From assembly GCA_937894085.1 (NCBI GenBank), contig CALCSG010000159.1, positions 1 to 40,336 of the forward strand: a stretch of DNA of 40,336 bases, in the 5' to 3' direction. This document shows positions 294 to 27,406 of the stretch, piece after piece; positions within the stretch are counted from its first letter, which is position 1; every line of letters starts with the position of its first letter. The notes below the pieces were generated by a model. The model saw only the letters and a list, made by a program, of their open reading frames with translations. It did no database searches and had not been told where the DNA came from. The translations under genes were made by a program, and so were the position numbers. The stretch comes from an uncultured Gammaproteobacteria bacterium (lineage in GTDB: Bacteria; Pseudomonadota; Gammaproteobacteria; GCA-001735895).

Positions 294-728
294 ATGTCAA
301 TTTTCAGTAAGATCAATAAAAGTAAAAAAGTCCTGTGGGTTTGGACAGTATTGCTTTCAATGGTATTACTGTTCGGTCAAAACTTGAGGTTCCATGTGCA
401 TAGTCTGGATCATGCTGATAATCAGCAGTTCAGCCATATGTCAGTAGAGCTGAGTGATGATCATTCACATCCTGGTGACGCTCACCTTTCTTCAGATACA
501 TCTCATTCCGATCACCACGCTGAAATTGTTTCAGAAATAGATACGAGTCTGAATGCTTTACTTATAGATACCTCTAGCAAAATACTAACGCTGGCTTTGC
601 TAATTACCCTGCTAGTATTTTACTTACCTGGTTTCTGTCAATTAATAGTCCATCGCCGCTACATTCACCCTGTCATCAACTTCTGGCGATACCACTTTTC
701 TCCTCCCCTGCGTGCTCCACCACTCTAA
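294..728 (+). CDS. His-rich small membrane protein, probable metal-related accessory
   Basis: About 144 residues. An N-terminal membrane segment (around residues 13-30) is followed by a periplasm-type linker full of His and Asp (HSLDH, DDHSHPGDAH, TSHSDHHAE) and a second membrane segment near residues 95-115. It ends in PPLRAPPL, a tail I associate with small proteobacterial proteins found beside heavy-metal efflux genes. The frame stays open upstream to a TTG at 258 and an ATG at 285; I prefer the ATG at 294 (MSIFSK) because the positive-inside signal-anchor starts there, although no good ribosome site is visible. It heads a run of metal-type genes on the same strand. Histidine clusters suggest Zn, Cu, Ni or Co binding; the metal is not known and no catalytic motif is seen. 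Confidence 0.6.
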   Translation: MSIFSKINKSKKVLWVWTVLLSMVLLFGQNLRFHVHSLDHADNQQFSHMSVELSDDHSHPGDAHLSSDTSHSDHHAEIVSEIDTSLNALLIDTSSKILTLALLITLLVFYLPGFCQLIVHRRYIHPVINFWRYHFSPPLRAPPL

Positions 729-781
729 AATTCAATTTTTTAAGTCATTGTAGATTTTACCGACCCTTTTTGGATCTGTAA

Positions 782-801
782 TAAGCAATGCGCATTGTTA
801 T
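782..801. promoter_or_regulatory. Palindrome, candidate operator of the metal cluster
   Basis: A perfect 12-bp palindrome CAATGCGCATTG lies at 786-797. The flanks ATAAG on the left and TTATA on the right extend the symmetry with one unpaired base. It sits between the His-rich gene and the DUF3240 gene, about 75 bp before the latter's start, where an operator for a dimeric metal sensor could sit. It does not match the Zur consensus I know, so the regulator is unassigned. Confidence 0.35.
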
Positions 802-873
802 ATGTCCAGCAATACCTTTATTGAGATTTGTTGGGCTAATCAAAAAATTCTGAATTATTGCGGAGAAATACGC

Positions 874-1185
874 ATGAAGATATTAACACTTATTGTTCAT
901 ACCAGCGTTCAGCAGGAATTATCTGACCTGTTGCGCTCGATGGATCAAATATCCGGGTTTACCTTTGCTCATGTAGAGGGGCACGGAGATGAGGTTGAAG
1001 CTGATTCTTTTGTTTCTGCACGAGATGAGGTAGTCGGATACATATCACGAATACGAACCGATATATTGATTGAGGATACTGATCTTGACGCCATTCTATC
1101 AAGACTTTTCGATAAGCAAAATAACATGACCGGTCAAGGTATTTACTGGGTAACTCCTGTTGAAAATGGAGGCCATATTCTATGA
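874..1185 (+). CDS. DUF3240 family PII-like protein
   Basis: 103 residues beginning MKILTLIVH. The ATG at 874 is preceded by GGAG eight bases upstream, so it is preferred over the in-frame ATG at 802, which abuts the palindrome at 786-797 and has no ribosome site. The sequence fits the DUF3240 family: a small ferredoxin-like, PII-type fold with a beta strand at the N-terminus, a central segment HVEGHGDE and a C-terminal YWVTPVENGGHI strand. Members are usually encoded in heavy-metal RND efflux operons (Czc/Cus type). Here no RND genes are in view; the gene instead overlaps the HupE/UreJ gene by four bases (ATGA), implying coupled translation. Role as a sensor or metallochaperone of the cluster is inference. 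Confidence 0.75.
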   Translation: MKILTLIVHTSVQQELSDLLRSMDQISGFTFAHVEGHGDEVEADSFVSARDEVVGYISRIRTDILIEDTDLDAILSRLFDKQNNMTGQGIYWVTPVENGGHIL

Positions 1186-2426
1186 ATCAGTTTAATACCA
1201 GATCGACTTTAACAGCGACTGTAAAGGCTCCACTAGAAGTTGCAAGCAGGCCTCTTTTTGTTAACAGGAATCTCTTTTTCCTGATGGTGGGCATATTCCT
1301 TATATTACTATTACCCGATTTTGCTTATGCGCATGGCATGTCAGAAGAAGAGAAGCTCGCTATTATAGAGGGTGGTAATCTACGATATATGTGGCTTGGA
1401 GCTACTCACATGTTGTCCGGCTATGATCACCTGGCATTTGTTTTTGGGATCATTTTTTTCCTGACCAACTTCCGGGATATTGCCAAATACGTGACTGCAT
1501 TTACGGTTGGGCATAGTGTCACTCTTATCTTTGCCACTTTTAATGCCATTCAGCTTAACTACTATCTGATTGATGCGGTAATAGCATTAAGTGTCTGTTA
1601 TATCGCTTTTACCAATCTTGATGGTTTTCGTAAATATCTGGGCATTAACCCTCCTAACATGATGGTGATGATACTGAGCCTGGGATTGATTCACGGATTT
1701 GGTTTATCGACTCGCCTACAGGCGCTGCCTTTAAGTGAAGATGAACTGTTACTCAACATTATATCGTTTAATGTGGGCATCGAAATCGGTCAAATCAGTG
1801 CCCTTGTGCTGATGTTGTTAGTGATAGCAACTTTTCGGAAAAGCCACCACTTCCAGACATTCAGTACCATTACCAATTATTTTCTGATTATAGCCGGGGG
1901 TTTGCTTTTTCTTATGCAAATGCACGGATACGAACATACGGCTAATGCAGAAGAATTTACTAATAGCACACCTCCACTACAGAATGCGGTAGATAGTAAA
2001 AAAGTTGTTGGGATAAAAAGTACTGCTGAAAGTCAACTGTCAGAATGGAAGGACACGATCAACTTGACCATTCCTGCAAGAGGCGATAAAGAATATAAAG
2101 TTTTTGTTAAGCAGGGAGCAGTATTTAACTATTCATGGGTAACCGATGGTGAGGAGCTCTTTTTTGATTTTCACGGTGAACCATCGGGCGATACTACCGG
2201 TGCATTTGAGAGTTTTGAAAAAGATACGGTTACACAATCCAGCGGCACTCTGGTCACTACATTTAGTGGTACCCACGGATGGTACTGGAAAAATTACACG
2301 AACAACCCGGTTAACATTACGTTGAGGTTAACTGGCGAATATCAGCGCAAAGATATTGCGCTAGATGTGAAGGAGAGCAGCCCTGTTATCAAAAAAAGCA
2401 AACCAAAACACGATTCTATTGATTAA
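1182..2426 (+). CDS. HupE/UreJ-type membrane protein fused to a C-terminal periplasmic beta domain
   Basis: 414 residues. An N-terminal hydrophobic stretch ends PDFAYAHG, then a six-to-seven-helix HupE/UreJ core follows, with HMLSGYDHLAF, FTVGHSVTL and GLIHGFGLS, the His/Asp motifs of this Ni/Co/Zn-type permease family. After the last helix (near 245) comes a soluble part, residues about 290-390, containing FNYSWVTDGEELFFDFHGEP and FSGTHGWYWKN. That segment matches proteins often annotated as 'transmembrane anchor protein', which in other bacteria I recall as separate neighbours of HupE/UreJ and DUF3240 genes. The fused form joins permease and extracytoplasmic domain in one chain. GGAGG lies ten bases before the start; the start overlaps the DUF3240 stop. 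The substrate is most likely a divalent metal, but this is not proven by sequence. Confidence 0.8.
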   Translation: MNQFNTRSTLTATVKAPLEVASRPLFVNRNLFFLMVGIFLILLLPDFAYAHGMSEEEKLAIIEGGNLRYMWLGATHMLSGYDHLAFVFGIIFFLTNFRDIAKYVTAFTVGHSVTLIFATFNAIQLNYYLIDAVIALSVCYIAFTNLDGFRKYLGINPPNMMVMILSLGLIHGFGLSTRLQALPLSEDELLLNIISFNVGIEIGQISALVLMLLVIATFRKSHHFQTFSTITNYFLIIAGGLLFLMQMHGYEHTANAEEFTNSTPPLQNAVDSKKVVGIKSTAESQLSEWKDTINLTIPARGDKEYKVFVKQGAVFNYSWVTDGEELFFDFHGEPSGDTTGAFESFEKDTVTQSSGTLVTTFSGTHGWYWKNYTNNPVNITLRLTGEYQRKDIALDVKESSPVIKKSKPKHDSID

Positions 2427-2443
2427 TTATAAGAGGAAATTTT

Positions 2444-2602
2444 ATGGATATTAAAACAGTATCACTTGTCGTCATAGTTTTTAGTATATTTCTATTAACA
2501 ACAATTTATCTTAATCCCAGCTCCACTCATGGGCATTCCCATGGGCCTGTAATGCAGGAAACAGAGAAAGCCAATTCAACTACACACGAAACTATTAAGT
2601 AA
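2444..2602 (+). CDS. 52-residue membrane peptide with HGHSHG motif
   Basis: A small frame, MDIKTVSLVVIVF..., with one hydrophobic helix (residues about 5-23), then THGHSHGP and a polar tail ending THETIK. AGAGGAAA lies eight bases before the ATG. The gene fits exactly between the HupE fusion (17-base gap) and the DUF6488 gene (18-base gap), each with its own ribosome site, which supports it as a real operon member even though it is very short. The HGHSHG cluster resembles the neighbouring His-rich proteins and suggests metal binding on the outer face of the membrane. I do not recognise a family. Confidence 0.65.
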   Translation: MDIKTVSLVVIVFSIFLLTTIYLNPSSTHGHSHGPVMQETEKANSTTHETIK

Positions 2603-2620
2603 CTTTAGGAGATTATCAAT

Positions 2621-2965
2621 ATGAATATACAAACAGTCATTTTAAGTCTTACATTATTCCTTTTCCCATTGTCTGCTTTAGCAGGTAGCGGGCATGATCA
2701 TGGTCATAGTCATGAGCCTGCTACTCAAAGTCAGGTTGAAAAAGTAGCTGGCGATATTGTTTATCAGCTTGCAGAAAAAAGTAAAATTGATGCTAGCTGG
2801 AAAGCAGTAAAAATCGAAAAATCACTCACCAAGAAGTTCGGTGATAATCTGGAATGGGTGGTCAGTTTTAAGAATGAAAAAATAACTGACCCTGCTAAAC
2901 AAACTCTGTATATATTTCTGACGTTGGGCGGTGAATATCTTGCTGCAAATTATACCGGCGAATGA
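2621..2965 (+). CDS. DUF6488 family periplasmic His-rich protein
   Basis: 114 residues with a clear signal peptide (cleavage near SALAG, residue 22) and a mature N-terminus GSGHDHGHSHEP that should bind divalent metal. The rest, containing KIDASWKAVKIEK, WVVSFKNEKITDP and TLYIFLTLGGEYLAANYTG, fits the DUF6488 family, small secreted proteins of unknown function. AGGAG stands about nine bases before the ATG. It closes the metal operon: a strong hairpin follows 38 bases after the stop. A periplasmic metal buffer or chaperone feeding the HupE-type protein is the simplest reading, but inferred from context only. Confidence 0.7.
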   Translation: MNIQTVILSLTLFLFPLSALAGSGHDHGHSHEPATQSQVEKVAGDIVYQLAEKSKIDASWKAVKIEKSLTKKFGDNLEWVVSFKNEKITDPAKQTLYIFLTLGGEYLAANYTGE

Positions 2966-3003
2966 AATGAGTGGAAATAGTTCGGATTAAATTCAAACAT
3001 TCC

Positions 3004-3047
3004 ATACCAGCCATAGTGATGGCTGGTATTTGATTACTCATTTTTTT
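3004..3047 (+). terminator. Intrinsic terminator of the metal operon
   Basis: A perfect 11-bp stem (ATACCAGCCAT at 3004-3014 and its complement at 3019-3029) with the four-base loop AGTG is followed, after an 11-base gap, by seven T. The stem is strong; the displaced T-run makes termination efficiency uncertain. Confidence 0.6.
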
Positions 3048-3088
3048 ATTAATCATAATATGAATAATTTGTCATTAGGAGGCATATC

Positions 3089-3532
3089 ATGAAAAAAATA
3101 ATATTAACTCCTTTCCTAATTTATTTAATAGCTTTTAATGCCGGCGCCCAGGATGGAGCGGCTGAGAAACTGGTGTCCTCGATGAAAAAAGCGGACATGA
3201 GCTATCGGCAGTTAATGGAAGTTATGGTAAAGAGCTCTACCATGATGCATGAGGGTATTCTCAGGGAAAATAAACAAATGGTAGAAGTTGGAGCGAATTT
3301 CATTTTTACACATCCTGCTCCCAATCATAAACCATGGAGCATTATGCAAGTAGAAGATCAGGCTGGTTTTAAACAAAGTCTGGTCGCTTTTGATAAAATT
3401 CTGGATATCCATACAGAAAATATTGTTGAAGCTGCAAAAAAAGAGGAATGGGTGGAAGCTAGCAAGGCGTCTCATGACTTGATGAACGCTTGCATCTCTT
3501 GCCATGCGATGTGGAGACAGAAGGTAAAATAA
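3089..3532 (+). CDS. Periplasmic c-type cytochrome, cytochrome c-prime-like
   Basis: 147 residues. A signal peptide (MKKIILTPFLIYLIAFNAGA) precedes a mostly helical domain with a single haem-binding motif CISCH at residues 135-139, eight residues from the C-terminus. One C-terminal CxxCH in a helical protein of this size is the layout of the cytochrome c-prime/c556 family, which bind NO or gases or serve electron transfer. Met residues (MMHEG near 52-56) could supply an axial ligand, but this is not decided. TAGGAGG lies seven bases before the ATG. The gene follows a terminator and may be transcribed alone. A link to the metal cluster is only positional. Confidence 0.75.
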   Translation: MKKIILTPFLIYLIAFNAGAQDGAAEKLVSSMKKADMSYRQLMEVMVKSSTMMHEGILRENKQMVEVGANFIFTHPAPNHKPWSIMQVEDQAGFKQSLVAFDKILDIHTENIVEAAKKEEWVEASKASHDLMNACISCHAMWRQKVK

Positions 3533-3609
3533 TTAAACCACAAAAATATGCTCTAACAGTATTTTAGTTTATTTACGGTAGCAATTAACTTTACCCAGGA
3601 AAAATTTAC

Positions 3610-4659
3610 ATGCATAAAATCCCTATATTGATGGGTCTTCTTTCAGCCATGCTATTTGGTGCTGCCACACCGGCGAGTAAGCTGCTTCTTGAGGGTTTTA
3701 GCCCTTTTCAACTCGCGGGATTGTTGTACCTGGGAGCAGCTTTAGCAGTAGCTCCGGCGGCATTCAAGCTGGGTGGATTTGCGCTACCTGCACGTTCCGA
3801 CCATCGCAACCAAATCAGGCTTATAGGCGCTGTTTTATTTGGTGGTATTCTAGGCCCTGTCGCCCTGCTATTCGGATTACAGCTGGCTGAAGCAGCTTCA
3901 GTTTCACTCTGGTTAAACCTGGAATTAGCGGCTACAGCTGTACTTGGAGTGTTTGTGTTCAGGGATCATCTCGGCCTTCTGGGGTGGCTCGGAGTCGTTT
4001 CGGCGATGTTGGCTTCTTTACTTCTCGTATGGGTGCCTGGATCATCAGGTTTCTTCTCAATCACCCTGGTTCTTATTGCCTGTATTTGCTGGGGATTAGA
4101 TAACCATCTCACTGCGCTAATCGACGGTATTACGCCAAGCCAAAGTACCTTATGGAAAGGCGCTGTAGCGGGAACAGTCAATTTGGCAATTGGGGCATTT
4201 TTAGATCCTATTTCGGTAGGGTTCCAACACATTGGAATTGCTTTGCTGCTAGGTGCACTTGCCTATGGAGCAAGTATAGTGCTGTATATTCGTTCCGCCC
4301 AGTCAATCGGTGCCACGCGTGCGCAAGTTCTTTTTGCGAGCGCTCCCTTTTTCGGTGTTGCACTGTCTGCCATTTTAATCGGTGAGCAACTGACACTAAT
4401 ACACGCAATTGCAACTCCTATCTTCTTGATTGGAGTTGCGTTACTGCTGATTGAAAGTCACTCTCACAATCATGTTCACGAAGCGATGACTCACGAGCAT
4501 AGACACAGCCACGACGATGATCATCACACTCACCGGCACGAAGAATTACACCCTTCAGAGCATCACTCGCATGTACATACTCATGAACCTGCAAAACATA
4601 ATCACCCGCATTGGCCGGATATCCATCATCGTCACAAGCATCAGTCCCAGAAAGAATGA
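3610..4659 (+). CDS. EamA/DMT-family transporter with long His-rich C-terminal tail
   Basis: 349 residues. Residues 1-282 are a ten-helix drug/metabolite transporter with two EamA repeats (MGLLSAMLFGAATPASK at the start; the second half near SITLVLIACICWGLDN). The last 67 residues carry 25 histidines (EHRHSHDDDHHTHRHEE and similar), far beyond the usual DMT C-terminus. Such a tail could sense or buffer zinc, nickel or cobalt at the cytoplasmic face, as His loops do in ZIP and CDF proteins. AGGA stands before the ATG. The gene shares strand and His-rich character with the upstream operon and may export metal or a metal-chelating metabolite. Substrate unknown; only the family call is firm. Confidence 0.8.
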   Translation: MHKIPILMGLLSAMLFGAATPASKLLLEGFSPFQLAGLLYLGAALAVAPAAFKLGGFALPARSDHRNQIRLIGAVLFGGILGPVALLFGLQLAEAASVSLWLNLELAATAVLGVFVFRDHLGLLGWLGVVSAMLASLLLVWVPGSSGFFSITLVLIACICWGLDNHLTALIDGITPSQSTLWKGAVAGTVNLAIGAFLDPISVGFQHIGIALLLGALAYGASIVLYIRSAQSIGATRAQVLFASAPFFGVALSAILIGEQLTLIHAIATPIFLIGVALLLIESHSHNHVHEAMTHEHRHSHDDDHHTHRHEELHPSEHHSHVHTHEPAKHNHPHWPDIHHRHKHQSQKE

Positions 4660-4781
4660 ATGGCTATGATTATGATGCATATCTAAGAGGTGAAGTTTAT
4701 GTTTACTCGGTAGATAGGCACAATAAAACTAAATCAATTGGCGGTTACAAACAAATAATTCAATATATTATTAAGTTTTAA
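4656..4781 (+). CDS. Possible 41-residue peptide overlapping the EamA stop
   Basis: An ATG at 4656 overlaps the EamA stop codon as ATGA, the classic translational-coupling arrangement. The frame encodes MNGYDYDAYLRGEVYVYSVD... and ends IIQYIIKF, rich in Tyr and Ile. It has no recognised family and no His cluster. Overlap geometry is the only support, so it may be chance. Confidence 0.25.
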   Translation: MNGYDYDAYLRGEVYVYSVDRHNKTKSIGGYKQIIQYIIKF

Positions 4782-5097: not shown

Positions 5098-6171
5098 TCA
5101 GGACAGCAACGCAACACTCTTGACTTGAGCATATACTTTTGTTCCAATTTTCAACCCCAGCTCTGAAGCAGACTTACGGGTTATTTTGGATAAGATCGGC
5201 ACTTCTCCAGCCAACAGCCGCACAACCATCTGGGCAGGACCAGTTTGCAGAATTTCATCAACGATAACCGGAAAAATATTTAAAATACTGGTTGCGGACT
5301 GATGCTCCAATGTCAGGCTGACATCCCTTGCTATCAGCCTTAGCCTGACTTCATCACCTTTTTGCAAAGCCTGTCCGGCAACCCTGATTGTACCTCCGGC
5401 AAACTCCAGTAACATCAGATGATAGACTTCATCAAAACCGGAAACGGTGGCATTAATGATCGCCGAGGCATCCAGTTCCTGAGCCAGCGGTAAGTCAAGG
5501 CGCGTAAACATGTCATGGATATCGCCCGAATTCACCACACGACCAGCTTCCATCAAAATAAGGTGGTCGGCTAATTGTGCCACTTCTTCCAGCGAATGGC
5601 TGACATAGATCACCGGGATATCCAGTTCTTTATGCAACGATTGAATATACGGCAATACTTCCATTTTTCGATTTTGATCCAGAGCAGCAAGTGGTTCATC
5701 CATCAACAATAGTTGCGGGCTGACAGCAAGCGCGCGGGCTATAGCAACTCGCTGCTTTTCACCACCGGATAAACTATGTGGTTTTCTTCGCAGCAGATTT
5801 CCTATTCCCAATAACTCGATAGCATCATGTAGAGACACTTTACGCTCTTTTTCCGGTAACCGTTTTAAACCATATTCAAGATTTTGTTGAACATTCATAT
5901 GCTCGAATAGACTGGCTTCCTGAAACACATAGCCTATCGGTCGCTGATGCGGGGGCATACTGTAACCGGTTTCCTGCCAGATCATTTCACCCACTTTCAG
6001 AAAACCAGACTGAGCAGTTTCAAGACCGGCAATAGCTCTCAGTAACGTGGTTTTACCGCAACCTGATGAACCGAATAGGGCCGTAACACCTTTGGCCGGT
6101 ATGCTAAATTCAGCATCCAGCAAGAAGTCACCGCGATGAAGTTTAAATTTTGCCTGGATACTAGATTGCAT
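5098..6171 (-). CDS. modC: Molybdate ABC transporter ATP-binding protein
   Basis: About 357 residues from the ATG at 6171, which overlaps the modB stop by 11 bases; a TTG three codons earlier is less likely. The N-terminal ATPase has a Walker [10 protein letters not shown] near residue 35, the signature [15 protein letters not shown], a Walker [13 protein letters not shown] and the switch histidine in YVSHS. The C-terminal third is a TOBE/Mop domain (near [10 protein letters not shown] and [15 protein letters not shown]) that binds molybdate oxyanion and is typical of ModC over other family 1 importers. It energises molybdate uptake through ModB. It is the last gene of modA-modB-modC. No ModE gene or clear ModE box was found. 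Confidence 0.93.
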
Positions 6172-6847
6172 TTTTAACAACCCTGAAGCGACTATTGAAT
6201 GCGTACACCGCGATAAGCAATATAAATGACATCAATAACAGGCCACCTGATAGCCAGTGAGCATGTGCATATTCCAGTCCTTCAACATGATCATAGATTG
6301 CGATAGAAAGTACCTGGGTTTCACCGGGAATATTGCCTCCTATCATCAACACCACGCCAAATTCGCCGACAGTATGTGCAAAGCCCAACACTGCTGCGGT
6401 TAAAAATCCGGGTCGAGCCAGAGGAATAGCAACTGTGAAAAAGCGATCCAGTGGCGACGCGCGTAGCGTTGCTGCTACCTCCATTGGCCTTTGACCAATT
6501 GCGCTGAATGCATCCTGTAACGGTTGCACTACAAAAGGCATGGAATAAAACACCGAACCGATCACCAGGCCACTGAAAGTAAAAGCAAGGGGTTGCCCCC
6601 CCATCGACATCATCAATGCTCCGAGTGGCCCATTCGGACCTAGCAGCAGTAACAGATAAAAACCTAACACCGTTGGCGGTAAAACCAGTGGTAATGCAAT
6701 GATGGCTTCCAGTAGAAATTTATAGCGCCAGCGGGATCTACTTAGCCACCAGGCAAGAGGCGTTCCTGTTAACAATAAAATACATGTCGTGAGCAAAGCC
6801 AGCTTGAGTGTAATGCCTAGCGCTATAAGATCAGATTCATTTAACAT
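6161..6847 (-). CDS. modB: Molybdate ABC transporter permease
   Basis: 228 residues with five or six membrane helices. The cytoplasmic EAA-type loop, here [25 protein letters not shown], contacts ModC, and [17 protein letters not shown] in the second third is the usual ModB helix. Length agrees with ModB (about 225-230). Its ATG touches the modA stop as TAATG and it overlaps modC by 11 bases, so the three genes are translationally coupled. The protein forms the homodimeric channel for molybdate across the inner membrane. Confidence 0.93.
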
Positions 6848-7584
6848 TACGGAATTTTGTAACCGGATTCATGGATTATTTTCAACACTTCATCGCTGCG
6901 CACAAAAGCTATAAAGGCATTATTAAGCGGGTTATCTTTCACTAAAACAACCTGCTGATTAATAGCGGTGTAACTTCCCTCGGGGACAACCCACAGTGAA
7001 CCTGCTAATGAAGCTGGTTCTGATTTCACCTGTGAAGCCGCCACAAATCCAAGTTGAGCGTTACCGCTTTTAACAAATTGAAAAGTTTGACCGATATTTT
7101 CACCTCGAACCATTCGCGATCTTAGCGAGTCCCACAAACCTTTTTTCTGTAAAACCTGTTGCGCCGCTCTACCATAGGGTGCAAGTTTTGGATTCGCCAC
7201 AGCCAGATATCTGAAATTAGAAGATTCAAGTACACGAGCCTCGGAATCTACCAGCTGTTTATCCGGGCTCCACAGTACAAGTTGACCCTGCGCATAAGTG
7301 AAACGGCTTCCTGCTAGCGCTATGCCCTGTTTTTCCAGTAATTCAGGCCGATAAGTATCCGCTGCAAAGAATACGTCAAACGGCGCACCATTTTTGATTT
7401 GCGCATAATGTTTGCCGGTAGAACCAACACTAATTATTAGATGATGGCCTGTTTTCTGTTCGAAGCGAGCTGCGATTACTTTAAGCGTGTTGGCAAAATT
7501 ACTTGCTACGGCTACGCGTATTTCTCCAGCAACCACCTGTTCTGTAAACAGGCATAGCAGGAAAAAAATACTCAAAAATTTCAT
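6847..7584 (-). CDS. modA: Molybdate-binding periplasmic protein
   Basis: About 245 residues from the ATG at 7584, chosen over a TTG at 7611 because it places a normal signal peptide ([20 protein letters not shown]) at the N-terminus. The mature protein starts [15 protein letters not shown] and carries the oxyanion-site motifs [30 protein letters not shown] and [12 protein letters not shown] of ModA. It delivers molybdate or tungstate to ModB. First gene of the operon; its promoter must lie in the roughly 100 bases shared with the divergent gene at 7686. Molybdoenzymes that would need it are not in the window. Confidence 0.92.
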
Positions 7585-7685
7585 TGGATGGTTGAATATC
7601 ACAATTGTCAAAAAACCAATAATACATCTTTATTCAAAAGTTTACGTTATCATTGCCCTACTTTTGTACTGTCCAGCGCTGTTTA

Positions 7686-8132: not shown

Positions 8133-8888
8133 TTAAAAGTCATTACTTTTTTCAACAATATTACTTTCTACCTTCAACTCGCTAAAACGATTTGTTTCAA
8201 TCATTTCAATACCAAGTCCTGCAAAATGCTGGACATCTTCAGCCGTATTCACCGTGTAAATGACCCATTCCCAGGCTCCTGCCCATAATTGCGATTTTTC
8301 CTGTGGACAGAAATCTGTACTGACGAATAAATAACGCGGGTCTAATTGAATGGATTTTAAGCGATTTTCTTCCGACCATTCCGGCAGCACATAGCCAATT
8401 GGCGTATCGTAGTTATTCTTCATGTATTCCAGCGCATCGTAATCAAAAGAAATTACAACTACCTGAGAAACAATATCTTTTAATGCCTGCATTATTAAAT
8501 CGACTGCTTTCAACCCGAAATAATTCAGGCAGGGCTCTTTTATCTCGATAAAACAGGTAACGTCAGGCCAGTCTTTCAGTAAAGCTGAAAACTGTTCCAC
8601 GGTAGCAATACGACAGTGGTTAAATTGATCACCAAATCGTTCACTAAAACCCGCGGGCAACTGTTTTATATCATCATAGCTACAATCAGCAACAATGATT
8701 TGTTTGCCGGTGAGTTTAAGCAGGTTAGCATCATGGCTCAAAACCGGTACACCATCCGAGGTTATGTTGACATCGGTTTCTATGTAAGATGCACCGGATT
8801 CAACAACAAAACTGAATCCTTCAAGGCTGTTTTCGGGGTAAGATAAAGGTTGGCCGCGATGAGCGACGAGTGAAACTCGACCTGTCAT
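8133..8888 (-). CDS. Glycerophosphodiester phosphodiesterase family protein
   Basis: 251 residues, cytoplasmic type with no signal peptide. The GDPD catalytic set is present: H10-R11 in AHRGQPLSYPENS, E37 and D39 in IETDV, and H52 in LSHD. The later FIEIKEP gives the third metal ligand. The C-terminal part (WAGAWEWVIYTVNTAEDV) is the usual TIM-barrel end. The enzyme should cleave glycerophosphodiesters to glycerol-3-phosphate and an alcohol, in lipid turnover or phosphate salvage. A second GDPD of different sequence lies at 11902. It stands alone: convergent with the 7686 gene and separated from the DsrC-like gene by two hairpins. Confidence 0.85.
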   Translation of the reverse strand: MTGRVSLVAHRGQPLSYPENSLEGFSFVVESGASYIETDVNITSDGVPVLSHDANLLKLTGKQIIVADCSYDDIKQLPAGFSERFGDQFNHCRIATVEQFSALLKDWPDVTCFIEIKEPCLNYFGLKAVDLIMQALKDIVSQVVVISFDYDALEYMKNNYDTPIGYVLPEWSEENRLKSIQLDPRYLFVSTDFCPQEKSQLWAGAWEWVIYTVNTAEDVQHFAGLGIEMIETNRFSELKVESNIVEKSNDF

Positions 8889-11003: not shown

Positions 11004-11876
11004 TCAACCCGCTCGCGAGTCAATGAATTTTAACCAGTTACGCAATTCAAGTTCGCGAATTTGTGGATCGATAATGTCATCGCCTACGTCAAGTTTCTCA
11101 CGCAGCTGTGTTGATTGCGGATTAGCATACAGCGCCTGCATGTCTGCAGCATAGCTTGCAACCGCCTGTTCATCTGGAAAATGACCTTCTTTGACCAGGG
11201 CTACCGATCTTGCCGCAATCAAACGACCCATTTCAAACAGGTTATATTCAGGATGATACTGGGTGCCCCAGAAAGCCGCATCACCTTTTTCAAGCACAGC
11301 GGCCTGAATGGATGTATGCTCATTACCCGCCAGCTTAACCGTACCTATAGGTAACCGCGTCACTTCATCAAGATGCATGATAAAAGCATCAAATTTTGCC
11401 GGTTTCCCTGCCAGCATTGGCGAAGTTGCGGCTGCAGCTGTTAGCTCGATTCCTCTGGCAATACCCCATTCGCGACCATTAGGATTTACCGCTACTTCAC
11501 CGCCACCCACTTGCGCTGCCATTTGCAGACCCCAGCAACTACCGTAACTGGCTGCTCCACTGTTCATCAATGACCGGGCGAAATCAATTTGCCCGGAAAC
11601 ACGCGGATCATCCACGTGATAAACCGTCAGGTCCGAACCGGTCCAGATAAAGCCATCGAAGTCACTGATGCTGGTGCCTTCTGGCAACGCAAAACCGGGG
11701 TCTGCCACAAACACAATTTCGCTGCTCGAATTGGGTGCTTCCCGGCTTAGAAAATCGCGGATAAGATCGTGTGGATGACCTACGTTCTGGCGGTCAAAAT
11801 TTTCACGGCTGGCTTGCGGATAGCAGTTAACGATACAAAATCGATAATTTGCTGTTGTCACTGGTGAATGTGTCAT
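11004..11876 (-). CDS. Class I glutamine amidotransferase-like protein
   Basis: 290 residues. It carries the GATase1 triad: nucleophile C114 in SYGSCWGLQMAA, H208 and E210 in GTQYHPEYN, and an oxyanion turn near WTGSD. The rest resembles the stand-alone GMP-synthase-like amidotransferases that hydrolyse glutamine or gamma-glutamyl compounds; the C-terminal 60 residues (ELRNWLKFID) are an added helical part. No synthetase partner is adjacent, so a gamma-glutamyl-hydrolase type of role is possible. It lies 25 bases downstream of the second GDPD gene and probably shares its transcript. Base composition of this pair appears more GC-rich than the neighbours, a hint of separate origin that I did not quantify. 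Confidence 0.75.
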   Translation of the reverse strand: MTHSPVTTANYRFCIVNCYPQASRENFDRQNVGHPHDLIRDFLSREAPNSSSEIVFVADPGFALPEGTSISDFDGFIWTGSDLTVYHVDDPRVSGQIDFARSLMNSGAASYGSCWGLQMAAQVGGGEVAVNPNGREWGIARGIELTAAAATSPMLAGKPAKFDAFIMHLDEVTRLPIGTVKLAGNEHTSIQAAVLEKGDAAFWGTQYHPEYNLFEMGRLIAARSVALVKEGHFPDEQAVASYAADMQALYANPQSTQLREKLDVGDDIIDPQIRELELRNWLKFIDSRAG

Positions 11877-11901
11877 CGATTGTTGTGTCCTGTGTATATG
11901 T

Positions 11902-12708
11902 TTAGGCGAGACACTGCTTCAGTACTCGCTGTGGAAAATCAGTAATAAGGCCTGTTACACCAATCTCAATAAGGCTCGCAATCATTTCATCATCGTTGAC
12001 CGAATATGGATTAAGTTTGACACCCAGCTCGACCTGCATTTTAAACTCATCAAGGGTAAGACGGGTATAGCGTGGATTAAAAGTATCGAAAAAAGGATCA
12101 CTGAAATCCATCGGATCTTCAGGAAATAAGCCCAGGATAGCCTGCACTTCAAATTCCGGTTTGCGCTGTTTTAATGTTTTCAACCATTCCAGCCGGGCCG
12201 ATGAAAACAACAGATGGTTTGCTCCGATCCCAACCTCATCGGCCAGTGCGAGTACCGCACTCACCACGTCGAAATTATGTTTAGGAGACGGCTGAGTTTT
12301 TAATTCAAGATTGAGAAACCAGTCCAGCTCAAGCGTGAGCTGGAAAGCTTCTTTCAGTGTGGGAACTTTTTCACCGGCAAAGCGAGCCAGTTGCTGAGGA
12401 TCGACTGCGCCGGCAGCGATCTGTCCAAATGGATCATCGCGCTCGAACCAGGAGCCGGCATCCAGTGATCTTATTTCTGCCAGTGTATACGTAGAAAATG
12501 GCGCCGGAACACGCTCTGCAAAAATCTCGGCGACATTGGTAGTCCTTGTCATTGCATCATCATGCATCAGTACCATGCGATCATCAGCCGTGATCGCAAC
12601 ATCCGTTTCCCACAGATCAGCACCCAGTTTATACGCCTTGCGTGCTGCGGCAAGAGTGTTTTCCGGTGCAAGGCTTCTCGCGCCTCTATGTGCGATTACT
12701 GTAACCAT
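11902..12708 (-). CDS. Glycerophosphodiester phosphodiesterase family protein (second)
   Basis: 268 residues, no signal peptide. GDPD motifs: H7-R8 in IAHRGARSLAPENT, E34 and D36 in LWETDV, H49 in LMHD and the ligand LELKT. A long insert between the first and second halves (RVPAPFSTYTLAEIRSLDAGSWF) matches the UgpQ-like subgroup. C-terminal YSVNDDEMIASLIEIGVTGLITDFP is typical. It is not a recent copy of the gene at 8133, since the two share only motif residues. It likely begins a two-gene operon with the amidotransferase. The natural substrate is unknown. Confidence 0.85.
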   Translation of the reverse strand: MVTVIAHRGARSLAPENTLAAARKAYKLGADLWETDVAITADDRMVLMHDDAMTRTTNVAEIFAERVPAPFSTYTLAEIRSLDAGSWFERDDPFGQIAAGAVDPQQLARFAGEKVPTLKEAFQLTLELDWFLNLELKTQPSPKHNFDVVSAVLALADEVGIGANHLLFSSARLEWLKTLKQRKPEFEVQAILGLFPEDPMDFSDPFFDTFNPRYTRLTLDEFKMQVELGVKLNPYSVNDDEMIASLIEIGVTGLITDFPQRVLKQCLA

Positions 12709-13003
12709 TGTGCGGGTAACTTTTTAGATCCACTTTATTCAGGCTGAAGACATACTATATTCAGACCGGATAGTGTTAACAACAAGTTTATTAAACTCAA
12801 CTAGCATGGACTGAAAGTCGTTTCCTGAGTAGCTTACTTTTGCCTGCTATTTTGTAGGGTGCGCCGTGCGCACCCCACCAAAAATTAAATTATACCTGGC
12901 CTATATTTCTTTATAGCTGGGTAACAGCTAAAGCCTTAATTTAAGTGCATCGTTTTAACTAGCGAACTAAAACCAATAAATTTGATGTTATCAATCAAAC
13001 CGA
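12709..13003. other. Gene-free stretch with a GTGCGC hairpin repeat
   Basis: No gene is seen. A hairpin GGGTGCGC-CGT-GCGCACCC at 12857-12875, preceded by TGTA, resembles short repeats dispersed in many gammaproteobacterial genomes. Its role is unknown. Confidence 0.5.
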
Positions 13004-13144
13004 TTAAAGCAGAATCCAGATACACAATGAAATCAGCAAAGTCATAAAGAAATTAAGTATCAACCCTACTCTCATCATTTGTTGTTGAGGTACAAAACCG
13101 GAGCCAAATACAATAGCAATGAATAATGTGAATAACGTTTTCAA
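13004..13144 (-). pseudogene. Relic of the C-terminus of a SLC13/DASS-type anion symporter
   Basis: A 46-residue frame (MKTLFTLFIAIVFGSGFVPQ, then MMRVGLILNFFMTLLISL, ending WILL) resembles the last two helices of sodium:dicarboxylate/sulfate symporters, where a GSGYV.. turn is followed by MMRxGLxLN. It has only a TTG start, no ribosome site and none of the upstream transporter. Most likely it is the leftover of a deleted gene, 12 bases from the arfB stop. A short functional membrane peptide cannot be excluded. Confidence 0.5.
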
Positions 13145-13156
13145 TGGATTGTTAGT

Positions 13157-13573
13157 TTAGTTATCCCAACTCACTTTTGAACGTAGCACCTTTTTTTTAC
13201 CTTCACGGGTTTTACTGTCCATTCTTTTCTGCCGCGAGCCTTTAGTCGGTTTGGTATCTATTCTTCTTTTCCTGACCTGGGCTACAGATTTGATTAACGC
13301 CTGCAATCTTGCCAGTGCATCTTCACGGTTTTTTTCCTGTGTTCGATGACTTTGCGCCTTTATTATAATCACACCCTCTTTAGTAATGCGCGTATCCGCA
13401 AGGTTTAATAACCGTGTTTTATAAAAATCGGGCAAGGAAGAAGCGTTAATATCAAAACGACAGTGAATTGCCGTGGATACTTTATTCACATTTTGACCAC
13501 CCGCCCCCTGGGAACGAATAGCACTCAGTTCTATTTCTGTATCAGGAATACTGACATTGTTTGAGATAATCAT
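13157..13573 (-). CDS. arfB: Alternative ribosome-rescue factor, peptidyl-tRNA hydrolase
   Basis: 138 residues, matching ArfB/YaeJ (about 140). The release-factor-like domain holds the catalytic GGQ at residues 25-27 (SQGAGGQNVNK), which cleaves peptidyl-tRNA on stalled ribosomes. The C-terminal tail KPTKGSRQKRMDSKTREGKKK is strongly basic and in the family enters the empty mRNA channel. It lacks the stop-codon-recognition domains of RF1/RF2. The ATG at 13573 is well placed relative to the family N-terminus (MIISNNVSIPDTEIELSAIRS). It appears monocistronic, with a transporter relic downstream. Confidence 0.92.
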   Translation of the reverse strand: MIISNNVSIPDTEIELSAIRSQGAGGQNVNKVSTAIHCRFDINASSLPDFYKTRLLNLADTRITKEGVIIIKAQSHRTQEKNREDALARLQALIKSVAQVRKRRIDTKPTKGSRQKRMDSKTREGKKKVLRSKVSWDN

Positions 13574-13733
13574 TTTACTTTCAGGTTTTAGAACAGGCCT
13601 AAAAACTTAATATTTAATCGGATTTAGATAAAACACACTTTACCATAATTTTAATTACTTTGAATTCACAAACAAAGGCCACATACTTTTTACGCTATAT
13701 TCATAACAAAATAGAATTACCAGGGAGAATTGA

Positions 13734-14714
13734 GTGAATAATCTACCTCAGCCTATAATTGAAGATTTAATTGAAGATTTAATTGAGCTGGCATTGCGTG
13801 ACCGACAGATTGCCTACCTTGAGTTAAATGAATCAGCAATACTGGTTTCTCAGAATGGTAATCTTGCAACATTCGGATTTGATTCTCTGCAAACAGGGGT
13901 TTTATTAGATCAGCAGGTGGACATGTTCACCGGTTTGCTAAGTGTTGAAAATTTACCGCTTTATCTACCCTTCATTCAAACACCTTCCGGGGTAACGGCA
14001 GACATTCACCTGTTTCAGAAACAGCAGAGTATCTGGATTTTACTGATGCATACCGAAGAGAAAAAAAAGCATTATCAGGCGATCCAGCAAAAAGTTTACG
14101 ATTTAAGGCTTACACATAACCGACAGACTAAAATAGTAAATCAATATCTGGGCAAAGAAGTGGCCGAACGGCTGGATGAAGGAATCGAACAAATCAAGGA
14201 TTCCGGCGAACGACGTAACCTGACCATTATGTTTGCTGATTTAAGAGGTTTTACCTCGTTCAGTGAAAACACCAGCCCGGAACAGGTTTTCGAGTTACTG
14301 AATACTTATTTAGCATCGATGATTCCTGTTGTACTGCATGAAAAGGGAGTTCTGGACAAAATAATCGGTGATGAAGTGATGGCCATTTTCGGCATGATAA
14401 CTGAAGAGCAGAATGGTCCCTTTGAAGCGTTACTGGCAGCATTCAGAATGCTGAACACCATAGAGAAACTCAACCTGGAACGTTTTCAGCAGGGTAAAAC
14501 CACCTTACAGATTGGCATTGGTCTGGCAACCGGACCTGTATCTTTAGGGGTTCTGGGTAGTCGACACAGAAAATCACTCACGGTCATCGGTAACCATGTC
14601 AACCTTGCCGCCCGCTTACAGGGTCAGGCCGGGGCTAAACAGTTAATCATCGATGAAACGACTTTTCAGGCTATCCCTTATTACCAGGATTTGTTTAGTA
14701 CCCGCAGTGTCTAG
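13734..14714 (+). CDS. Class III adenylate/guanylate cyclase, cut by an in-frame amber codon
   Basis: 326 residues from a GTG with GGGAG upstream. Residues 1-125 form a PAS-like sensor region, followed by a coiled linker (TKIVNQYLGKEVAERLDEG) and a class III cyclase domain. Both metal aspartates are present, D169 in MFADLRGFTSF and D213 in DKIIGDEVMAIFG, as are N290 and R294 of NHVNLAARLQ, so the core looks catalytic and would make cAMP or cGMP. The frame meets TAG at 14712 and then continues for 35 codons (LKGYSSALKIHQFE...) to a TAA at 14822. LKGY..ALKIH is the normal last strand of this family, so the TAG removes the end of the domain. A CAG-to-TAG change is the likely cause. The truncated protein may be inactive. 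Confidence 0.8.
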   Translation: MNNLPQPIIEDLIEDLIELALRDRQIAYLELNESAILVSQNGNLATFGFDSLQTGVLLDQQVDMFTGLLSVENLPLYLPFIQTPSGVTADIHLFQKQQSIWILLMHTEEKKKHYQAIQQKVYDLRLTHNRQTKIVNQYLGKEVAERLDEGIEQIKDSGERRNLTIMFADLRGFTSFSENTSPEQVFELLNTYLASMIPVVLHEKGVLDKIIGDEVMAIFGMITEEQNGPFEALLAAFRMLNTIEKLNLERFQQGKTTLQIGIGLATGPVSLGVLGSRHRKSLTVIGNHVNLAARLQGQAGAKQLIIDETTFQAIPYYQDLFSTRSV

Positions 14715-26503: not shown

Positions 26504-27406
26504 TTAAATACATTCCGGTCTATTTAATACACAATAATTTTCGCTGGATAAATTTTCGACCTGGATGGTGACGTGCTCAATATCAAATTTATCATGTAAT
26601 TGTTGTTGCGCTTGCAACAGAAAATCATTATCAATTTTTTCATCTGTTGTTATCAGGTGCACGGTTAACGCGGTTTCGGTAGTACTCAATGCCCATACAT
26701 GCAAGTCATGAATTTCTGCTACATTTTTCAAACCGGTTAAATAATTTTGTATTGCTAAAATATCAGTGCCCTGCGGAACACCGTCTATCGAAAGATGAAT
26801 AGACTCTTTCAATAAATTCCAGGTACCAATCAAAATAACTAACACAATTAACAGACTGAGAACCGGATCTAACCATAACCAGCCAGTCAGTAATATTGCC
26901 ACACCGGCAATCACCACTCCCAGTGAAATTCCAGCATCGGCTGCCATGTGCAAATAGGCAGCACGTATATTTAAATCATGCTTCTGGTCCTTCATAAATA
27001 ACATTGCTGTCACTGTGTTTATGACTACTCCGATCGCCGCAACGCCTATGATTATTGCTCCTTGTACCGGTTGCGGGTCGAATAAACGTCCGAATGCTTC
27101 CCAGCTTATACCACCGAGTGCAACCAGTAATAAAATAGCACTCGACAGAGAAGCCAGTATCGTTAAACGGCGCAATCCGTATGTCCTTTTTTCAGTGGAA
27201 TGTTTAGCAGCCAGCCTGTTGGCTCCCCAGGCCAGTAACAAACTGATTACATCACTTAAATTATGGCCGGCGTCAGCAATCAATGCCAGCGAGTCGGCAA
27301 AGATTCCAAAACTCGCTTCAATAATAACGAATACAATATTCAGGCTGATGCCTATCGCAAAGGCCTGATTGTAATTGTTTACATGATGACTGTGATCGTG
27401 TGACAT
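26504..27406 (-). CDS. Cation diffusion facilitator, zinc exporter
   Basis: 300 residues with six helices. N-terminal MSHDHSHH is a metal-binding patch. The transport site D/H ligands are in DSLALIADAGHNLSD (TM2) and in AAYLHMAADAGISLG (TM5); the cytoplasmic ferredoxin-like domain begins near residue 210 (EIHDLHVWALSTTETALTVHL). ZitB/CzcD subfamily, exchanging zinc (or cadmium, cobalt) for protons. Length and motif order agree with the family. Its stop touches the ybaK start. A second metal exporter in the window besides the His-rich cluster, but not adjacent to it. Confidence 0.88.
   Translation of the reverse strand: MSHDHSHHVNNYNQAFAIGISLNIVFVIIEASFGIFADSLALIADAGHNLSDVISLLLAWGANRLAAKHSTEKRTYGLRRLTILASLSSAILLLVALGGISWEAFGRLFDPQPVQGAIIIGVAAIGVVINTVTAMLFMKDQKHDLNIRAAYLHMAADAGISLGVVIAGVAILLTGWLWLDPVLSLLIVLVILIGTWNLLKESIHLSIDGVPQGTDILAIQNYLTGLKNVAEIHDLHVWALSTTETALTVHLITTDEKIDNDFLLQAQQQLHDKFDIEHVTIQVENLSSENYCVLNRPECI

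Follow-up and report, generated by a model that had tools for sequence, protein, structure and literature searches.

We found, near one end of a bacterial contig, a compact cluster of putative metal-handling genes whose order is kept, with and without an RND pump, among related bacteria. There is, in our judgment, about an even chance that this cluster corresponds to the accessory genes of a CzcCBA-type operon, here without the pump, and acts in pump-independent nickel/cobalt homeostasis. The window, by which we mean the whole stretch of 40,336 nucleotides analyzed, is an entire contig from an assembly of 567 contigs. The features discussed here are as follows:

294-728, plus strand: g1, a His-rich protein with hydrophobic segments at both termini and a conserved PPLRAPP-like C-terminus, without a Pfam family
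874-1185, plus strand: DUF3240/PII-like protein (PF11582, 56.9 bits vs. a cut-off of 21; PF00543, 36.7 vs. 25)
1182-2426, plus strand: HupE_UreJ_2 permease (PF13795, 171.5 bits vs. 24.5) with a predicted signal peptide and the tail KHDSID
1341-2600, plus strand: mosaic segment, from sliding identity and the conflict between the HupE and DUF3240 trees
2444-2602, plus strand: g4, a His-rich protein of 52 aa, membrane-anchored or exported, with the C-terminus THETIK
2621-2965, plus strand: DUF6488 protein (PF20098, 78.2 bits vs. 27), predicted to be exported, with the N-terminal segment HDHGHSH
3004-3029, plus strand: hairpin with a T-run ~12 bases downstream, the probable end of the g1-DUF6488 operon
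3089-3532, plus strand: CxxCH protein, on inspection by eye similar to cytochrome c', probably a separate unit
3610-4659, plus strand: EamA/DMT transporter with a His-rich C-terminal tail (PF00892, 93.8 bits vs. 28.2), probably a separate unit

The HupE/UreJ, DUF3240, and DUF6488 families named for this cluster by an earlier, sequence-only reading were borne out by profile matches above the cut-offs. Both PF11582 and PF00543 exceed their curated cut-offs, which places the DUF3240 protein in the PII superfamily, and this protein also matches PII structures by sequence. The Pfam profile search gave no family match for g1, g4, or the CxxCH protein. The sequence-only reading had counted six plus-strand genes at 294-4781; the strand holds, but the genes number seven and end at 4659, and the TTG-initiated ORF of 56 aa ending at 4781 is without support as a gene. 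His clusters had also been claimed for five of the genes. With the other window proteins as the background (2.4% His), enrichment is clear in g1 (13/144, p = 4e-5) and in the DMT transporter (31/349, p = 5e-10) and marginal in the 52-aa g4 (p = 0.03), but the His contents of HupE, DUF6488, and the CxxCH protein are not significantly above those of the other window proteins.

The hairpin at 3004-3029 (-17 kcal/mol, z = -4.86, none of 200 shuffles as good) is a probable terminator and is not among the hits of a consensus terminator scan. Because this hairpin and its T-run sit after DUF6488, the operon proper probably spans 294-2965 and comprises g1, DUF3240, HupE, g4, and DUF6488, with the CxxCH and DMT genes probably transcribed separately. 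Relatives of the CxxCH gene lie close to the module in few loci (L058, L073, L076, and L093), as do those of the DMT gene (L046, where it is broken, L048, L107, and L115); given the hairpin and this limited linkage, the earlier treatment of all genes as one unit is unsupported. In L058 (11788-14391), a DmeF gene that closely follows the module has several window-like CxxCH genes around it. In the window, the DMT gene is convergent with minus-strand ORFs read as a molybdate-type ABC transporter (5098-7611; ATPase, permease, and binding protein), and a molybdate-type-like ATPase was also seen within ~7 kb of HupE in L092, L111, and L113. Two glycerophosphodiester phosphodiesterase-like ORFs, ~3 kb apart, are found at 8133-8888 and 11902-12708 (minus strand).

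The window contains no RND, adaptor, or outer-membrane genes and so does not hold a CzcCBA operon. The claim that an RND pump is absent is correct within the window; however, it is weak proof, because the assembly breaks off at the left contig end, 293 bp before g1. Since the window is the whole contig, a missing upstream RND gene is not readable from the window alone. The concern that RND genes lie just outside was answered from elsewhere, with pump-less relatives that have up to ~9 kb of upstream sequence and a genome with no close czcA: the best match to the same-genus CzcA in the window's genome is 36% identical and has a CusA-type LMYMP motif. No pump remnant was detected in the spacer (726-873) or the upstream region (1-293), which have no blastn similarity to any compared locus. 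DUF3240 and DUF6488 are both single-copy in the window's genome. Among the RND genes of genome G000, one (C197, 3748-6996) gave two adjoining matches within a single long frame, and a second one (C157) contains a single in-frame TAG.

The gene order was compared in two samples. The first consisted of 80 loci from a scan of named genomes, and the profiles were built from the window genes, the RND genes of the window's genome, and the adaptor and outer-membrane genes of three loci. Two arrangements were found, namely, g1-OMF-MFP-RND-(DUF3240)-HupE-(DUF6488) and, in a larger set, g1-(DUF3240)-HupE-(DUF6488) without a pump. Among the loci used for the tree, a CzcA-family RND gene is located just upstream of HupE in 17, g1-DUF3240-HupE is found in 12, and g1-HupE without a detected DUF3240 is found in 27. 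The second sample, anchored on DUF6488, covered 26 of 369 genomes of the same class, with contigs that partly overlap the first sample; its map count gave 11 pump-less g1-HupE clusters vs. 5 RND-linked ones, the remainder being cut by contig ends or lacking HupE or g1. In the sampled loci, clusters lacking the pump are no rarer than those linked to one. The conserved synteny that the sequence-only reading had proposed to look for therefore extends far outside the window's genome. Its supposition of a stand-alone set agrees with the pump-less cluster conserved across relatives, and its statement that related genes accompany CzcCBA in other bacteria agrees with the pump-linked loci and a Shewanella plasmid operon. 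Both forms were observed in one locus, L093 (2578-11444), in which a full RND operon that begins with its own g1 is divergent to a pump-less g1-DUF3240-HupE-DUF6488 module.

The window HupE and all 75 homologs match PF13795. In each of the 75, HGMS (HGIS in two) follows a hydrophobic leader whose -1 position is a small residue, such that the predicted mature N-terminus is His, which would be H51 of the ORF in the window HupE. A His directly after the signal peptide, as in anglerases, is thus present in 75/75 homologs as judged by sequence only. Invariant in the alignment of 75 are H76, D82, H83, H111, H171, E201, D329, H331, and H365, and these His, Asp, and Glu residues sit in the membrane part and the C-terminal domain. 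In the AlphaFold2 model, helices start from residue 55 and a beta domain (~290-385) follows the permease; no anglerase-type beta-sandwich was found N-terminal to the permease in this model. A fold search with the predicted C-terminal domain matched the TMED1 GOLD domain (7rrm; E = 1.2e-4, target TM-score 0.78, 11% identity), and this domain resembles the GOLD domain of p24 proteins at the level of the predicted fold. The PDB sequence search with HupE gave no match. Six membrane segments, with His1 and the C-terminal domain both in the periplasm, would fit the model and the charged loops. The permease and the C-terminal domain are encoded by separate genes in two family-level relatives and on plasmids, and in one case the separate gene is annotated as "transmembrane anchor protein."

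Gating of membrane transporters is a known function of PII proteins, for example, GlnK. In the window, DUF3240 and HupE share 4 bases where the one gene ends and the other starts, and from this adjacency the two proteins are putative partners. DUF3240 is retained in a dozen pump-less clusters and is therefore not merely a partner of CzcA; it is also missing from many pump-less clusters, so a gate would be optional rather than essential to HupE. For g1, an iterated profile retrieved 54 ORFs, with H34, H36, H64, R140, P142, and P143 invariant in 49; two homologs match DUF2946 weakly. In roughly a dozen loci, a g4 homolog is encoded after HupE and before DUF6488, and most of the homologs are lipoprotein-like. 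The predicted model of DUF6488 has a helix and four strands, and this protein had only a marginal match in the PDB sequence search and no confident solved relative in the fold search. In the open-access library that was searched, DUF6488 appears in no paper, and DUF3240 appears only in a Helicobacter genomic-island comparison.

Taken as a pump-less accessory module, the cluster may work in the following way. The g1, g4, and DUF6488 proteins would bind divalent metal in the periplasm, and HupE, as an inner-membrane permease, would exchange metal with them and move it across the inner membrane. The mature N-terminus of HupE is predicted to be His, and its C-terminal GOLD-like domain would face the periplasm. 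The DUF3240 protein would be a PII-like cytoplasmic subunit that either gates HupE as GlnK gates AmtB or reports the metal state. In pump-bearing relatives, CzcCBA would then clear metal from the periplasm, and the window module would work without the pump.

HupE and g4 share a C-terminal tail of an HD[ST]I[DN]-like pattern. A THDTID-like tail ends 50 of 79 HupE proteins, and a HupE-like tail is present in 12 of the 13 small His-rich proteins encoded directly after HupE. The strict motif was found in 3 of 8236 other ORFs, namely, a duplicate record of the g4 of the same-genus genome G032 and two module-adjacent g4-like ORFs. HupE is the sole carrier of the HDSID tail in the window's genome; three further hits occur in relatives outside the module, and the one inspected is not a gene end. 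We infer that this tail may serve as a docking tag. The HupE tail and DUF6488 occur together in 47 cases, are both lacking in 18, and are discordant in 8; the link is strong by count alone but not significant on well-supported independent pairs, for which there are too few contrasts. It is a rather doubtful extension that the tail is read by DUF6488 or another common partner, which would give a tagged periplasmic metal relay with a PII-like cytoplasmic gate, operating with or without CzcCBA.

The metal handled is most likely Ni(II)/Co(II), as inferred from the linked DmeF genes and the literature. Three linked CDF genes, in three loci, are DmeF Co/Ni equivalogs. In Sphingobium sp. ba1, the gene most strongly induced by Ni is a HupE/UreJ-like one within an RND-NreB cluster (PMC5557971), and in Geobacter, PII-NG is encoded in a czcABC operon and is upregulated under Co (PMC7726332). 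Anglerase-HupE proteins bind Cu and Ni via an N-terminal His (PMC12537917). Regulators near the module (CsoR/RcnR-type repressors at a few copies and a MerR-type regulator in one locus) do not fix the metal, and Zur-box-like patterns match the window no more than expected by chance, with none near the module. The window also encodes a CDF transporter with a His-rich N-terminus far from the module (26504-27406, minus strand), which matches the CDF superfamily above the cut-off and is nearest to ZitB, below the cut-off of that model.

Regarding the direction of transport, regulated entry is slightly favored over export. A less probable alternative is that HupE and the His-rich proteins form an exporter, moving Ni/Co from the cytoplasm to the periplasm and holding it there, with CzcCBA as an optional addition. 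The location of HupE inside efflux operons, its proximity at single loci to DmeF or to a TIGR00900-subfamily MFS gene (below the model cut-off), and the place of the Ni-induced Sphingobium homolog in a resistance cluster are consistent with export, but the Ni accumulation stated for Escherichia coli cells with heterologous hupE or ureJ points to import (PMC5557971).

A metal other than Ni/Co, namely, Zn, Cd, or Cu, is likewise possible, though on balance improbable. By TMH4 motif, the linked RNDs are of two types, one with the D-x5-D-type motif of divalent-cation HME pumps, and the MerR-type regulator is closest to the MerR/ZntR/CadR models, below their cut-offs. Moreover, anglerase domains bind Cu more tightly than Ni (PMC12537917). 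Against this, those linked CDF genes to which a name could be given are DmeF genes for Co/Ni, and the linked RNDs, two of which were tested and belong to the CusA/CzcA family, lack the CusA LMYMP motif.

A role in supplying imported Ni to the [NiFe]-hydrogenases or urease of the organism appears quite unlikely for the module. Genes for NiFe-hydrogenase and urease are present in the window's genome and a characterized HupE serves hydrogenase, but these genes are on other contigs, no hydrogenase- or urease-like cluster was found among the neighbor clusters common to at least three loci, and the partners of the module are efflux and His-rich proteins.

The pump state has changed repeatedly during the evolution of these clusters. 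On the HupE tree, the RND label requires ~13 changes, at least eight of them on well-supported branches, a count in which gain and loss are not told apart; a quick HupE tree gave the same count. Deletion of the pump accounts for at least one pump-less case, as indicated by a CzcA stump between g1 and DUF3240 in L046 (Lamellibrachia barhami endosymbiont). This stump has 53 residues that are 79% identical to L060 CzcA, the stretch is free of N, and there is no close full-length CzcA copy elsewhere in the L046 genome. The DMT gene after the L046 module is in several pieces (11644-13768), a second sign of decay beside the stump.

Judged by identity and tree topology, the window cluster is a mosaic. 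Both forms are found in G032, with CzcA before DUF3240 and HupE on one contig and without it on another. Over most of the segment ~1341-2600, the window shares 80-97% identity with the RND-linked copy, whereas identity to that copy is only 53-70% in the window DUF3240 gene directly upstream, whose start and end are nearer to the stand-alone copy. Synonymous distance rises from 0.5 for HupE to 2.7 for DUF3240. In the trees, the window HupE groups with the RND-linked copy (100/99) and the window DUF3240 with the stand-alone copy (96/78). Because of these opposite groupings, a simple deletion of the pump in this lineage was rejected as a full account of the window cluster; pieces have been exchanged between the two forms, and the window cluster need not descend directly from a pump deletion. 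The dN/dS of ~0.1 for HupE, DUF3240, and g4 (vs. the G032 copy) indicates that these genes are maintained. That the cluster is a decaying czc leftover, whose pump was lost and whose accessory genes persist without a job, is highly improbable: L046 with its stump and broken DMT gene shows that pump loss happens, but the abundance of pump-less clusters, their open frames, and this low dN/dS argue against it.

These patterns suggest that the "accessory" genes of heavy-metal efflux pumps may form an exchangeable module of their own. In that case, DUF6488, DUF3240, and g1, which are families without a known role, gain a testable one, the idea of a permease with an N-terminal metal-binding His is extended to a new domain order, and the shared tail provides a specific prediction of protein-protein interaction.

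Related known systems include CzcCBA-type operons with HupE/UreJ, "anchor," and DUF6488 genes, such as that of a Shewanella sp. ANA-3 plasmid (NC_008573.1), which carries HupE/UreJ, a homolog of the C-terminal domain, and DUF6488 in the same order as the window. On the plasmid, HupE is preceded by TolC, adaptor, and CzcA genes and the C-terminal domain has a gene of its own, whereas the window cluster is pump-less, has one fused HupE protein, and includes g1 and DUF3240. Anglerases (Ang-1/Ang-2; PMC12537917) share with the window the HupE/UreJ-2 permease with His as the predicted mature N-terminus; in anglerases, the beta-sandwich bearing His1 precedes the permease, but the window HupE has only ~18 residues there and the GOLD-like domain after it. 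The Pseudomonas aeruginosa plasmid pPALO532 resembles the window in having HupE and a "transmembrane anchor protein" homologous to the C-terminal domain with no RND nearby; the two are separate genes beside an MFS gene and a CsoR/RcnR-type repressor, and g1, DUF3240, and DUF6488 were not found. In the PII-NG/czcABC operons (PMC7726332), a PII-family protein is encoded with a CzcABC-type system, whereas the PII-like protein of the window belongs to DUF3240 and has been kept although no pump is present. The Ni resistance locus NcrABC (PMC3046157, PMC8545094) is likewise without an RND pump, but NcrA (MFS), NcrB (RcnR/CsoR-like), and NcrC (PF03824) are all missing from the module; with none of these families among the seven window genes, NcrABC was rejected as the known parent. 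Each family in the cluster is known, and the pump-linked operon of HupE, C-terminal domain, and DUF6488 is already annotated on the Shewanella plasmid. As far as the open literature shows, the new features are a pump-less cluster that is conserved and includes g1 and DUF3240, a pump state that changes repeatedly, the fusion of a C-terminal GOLD-like domain to a permease with a predicted N-terminal His, and the shared tail.
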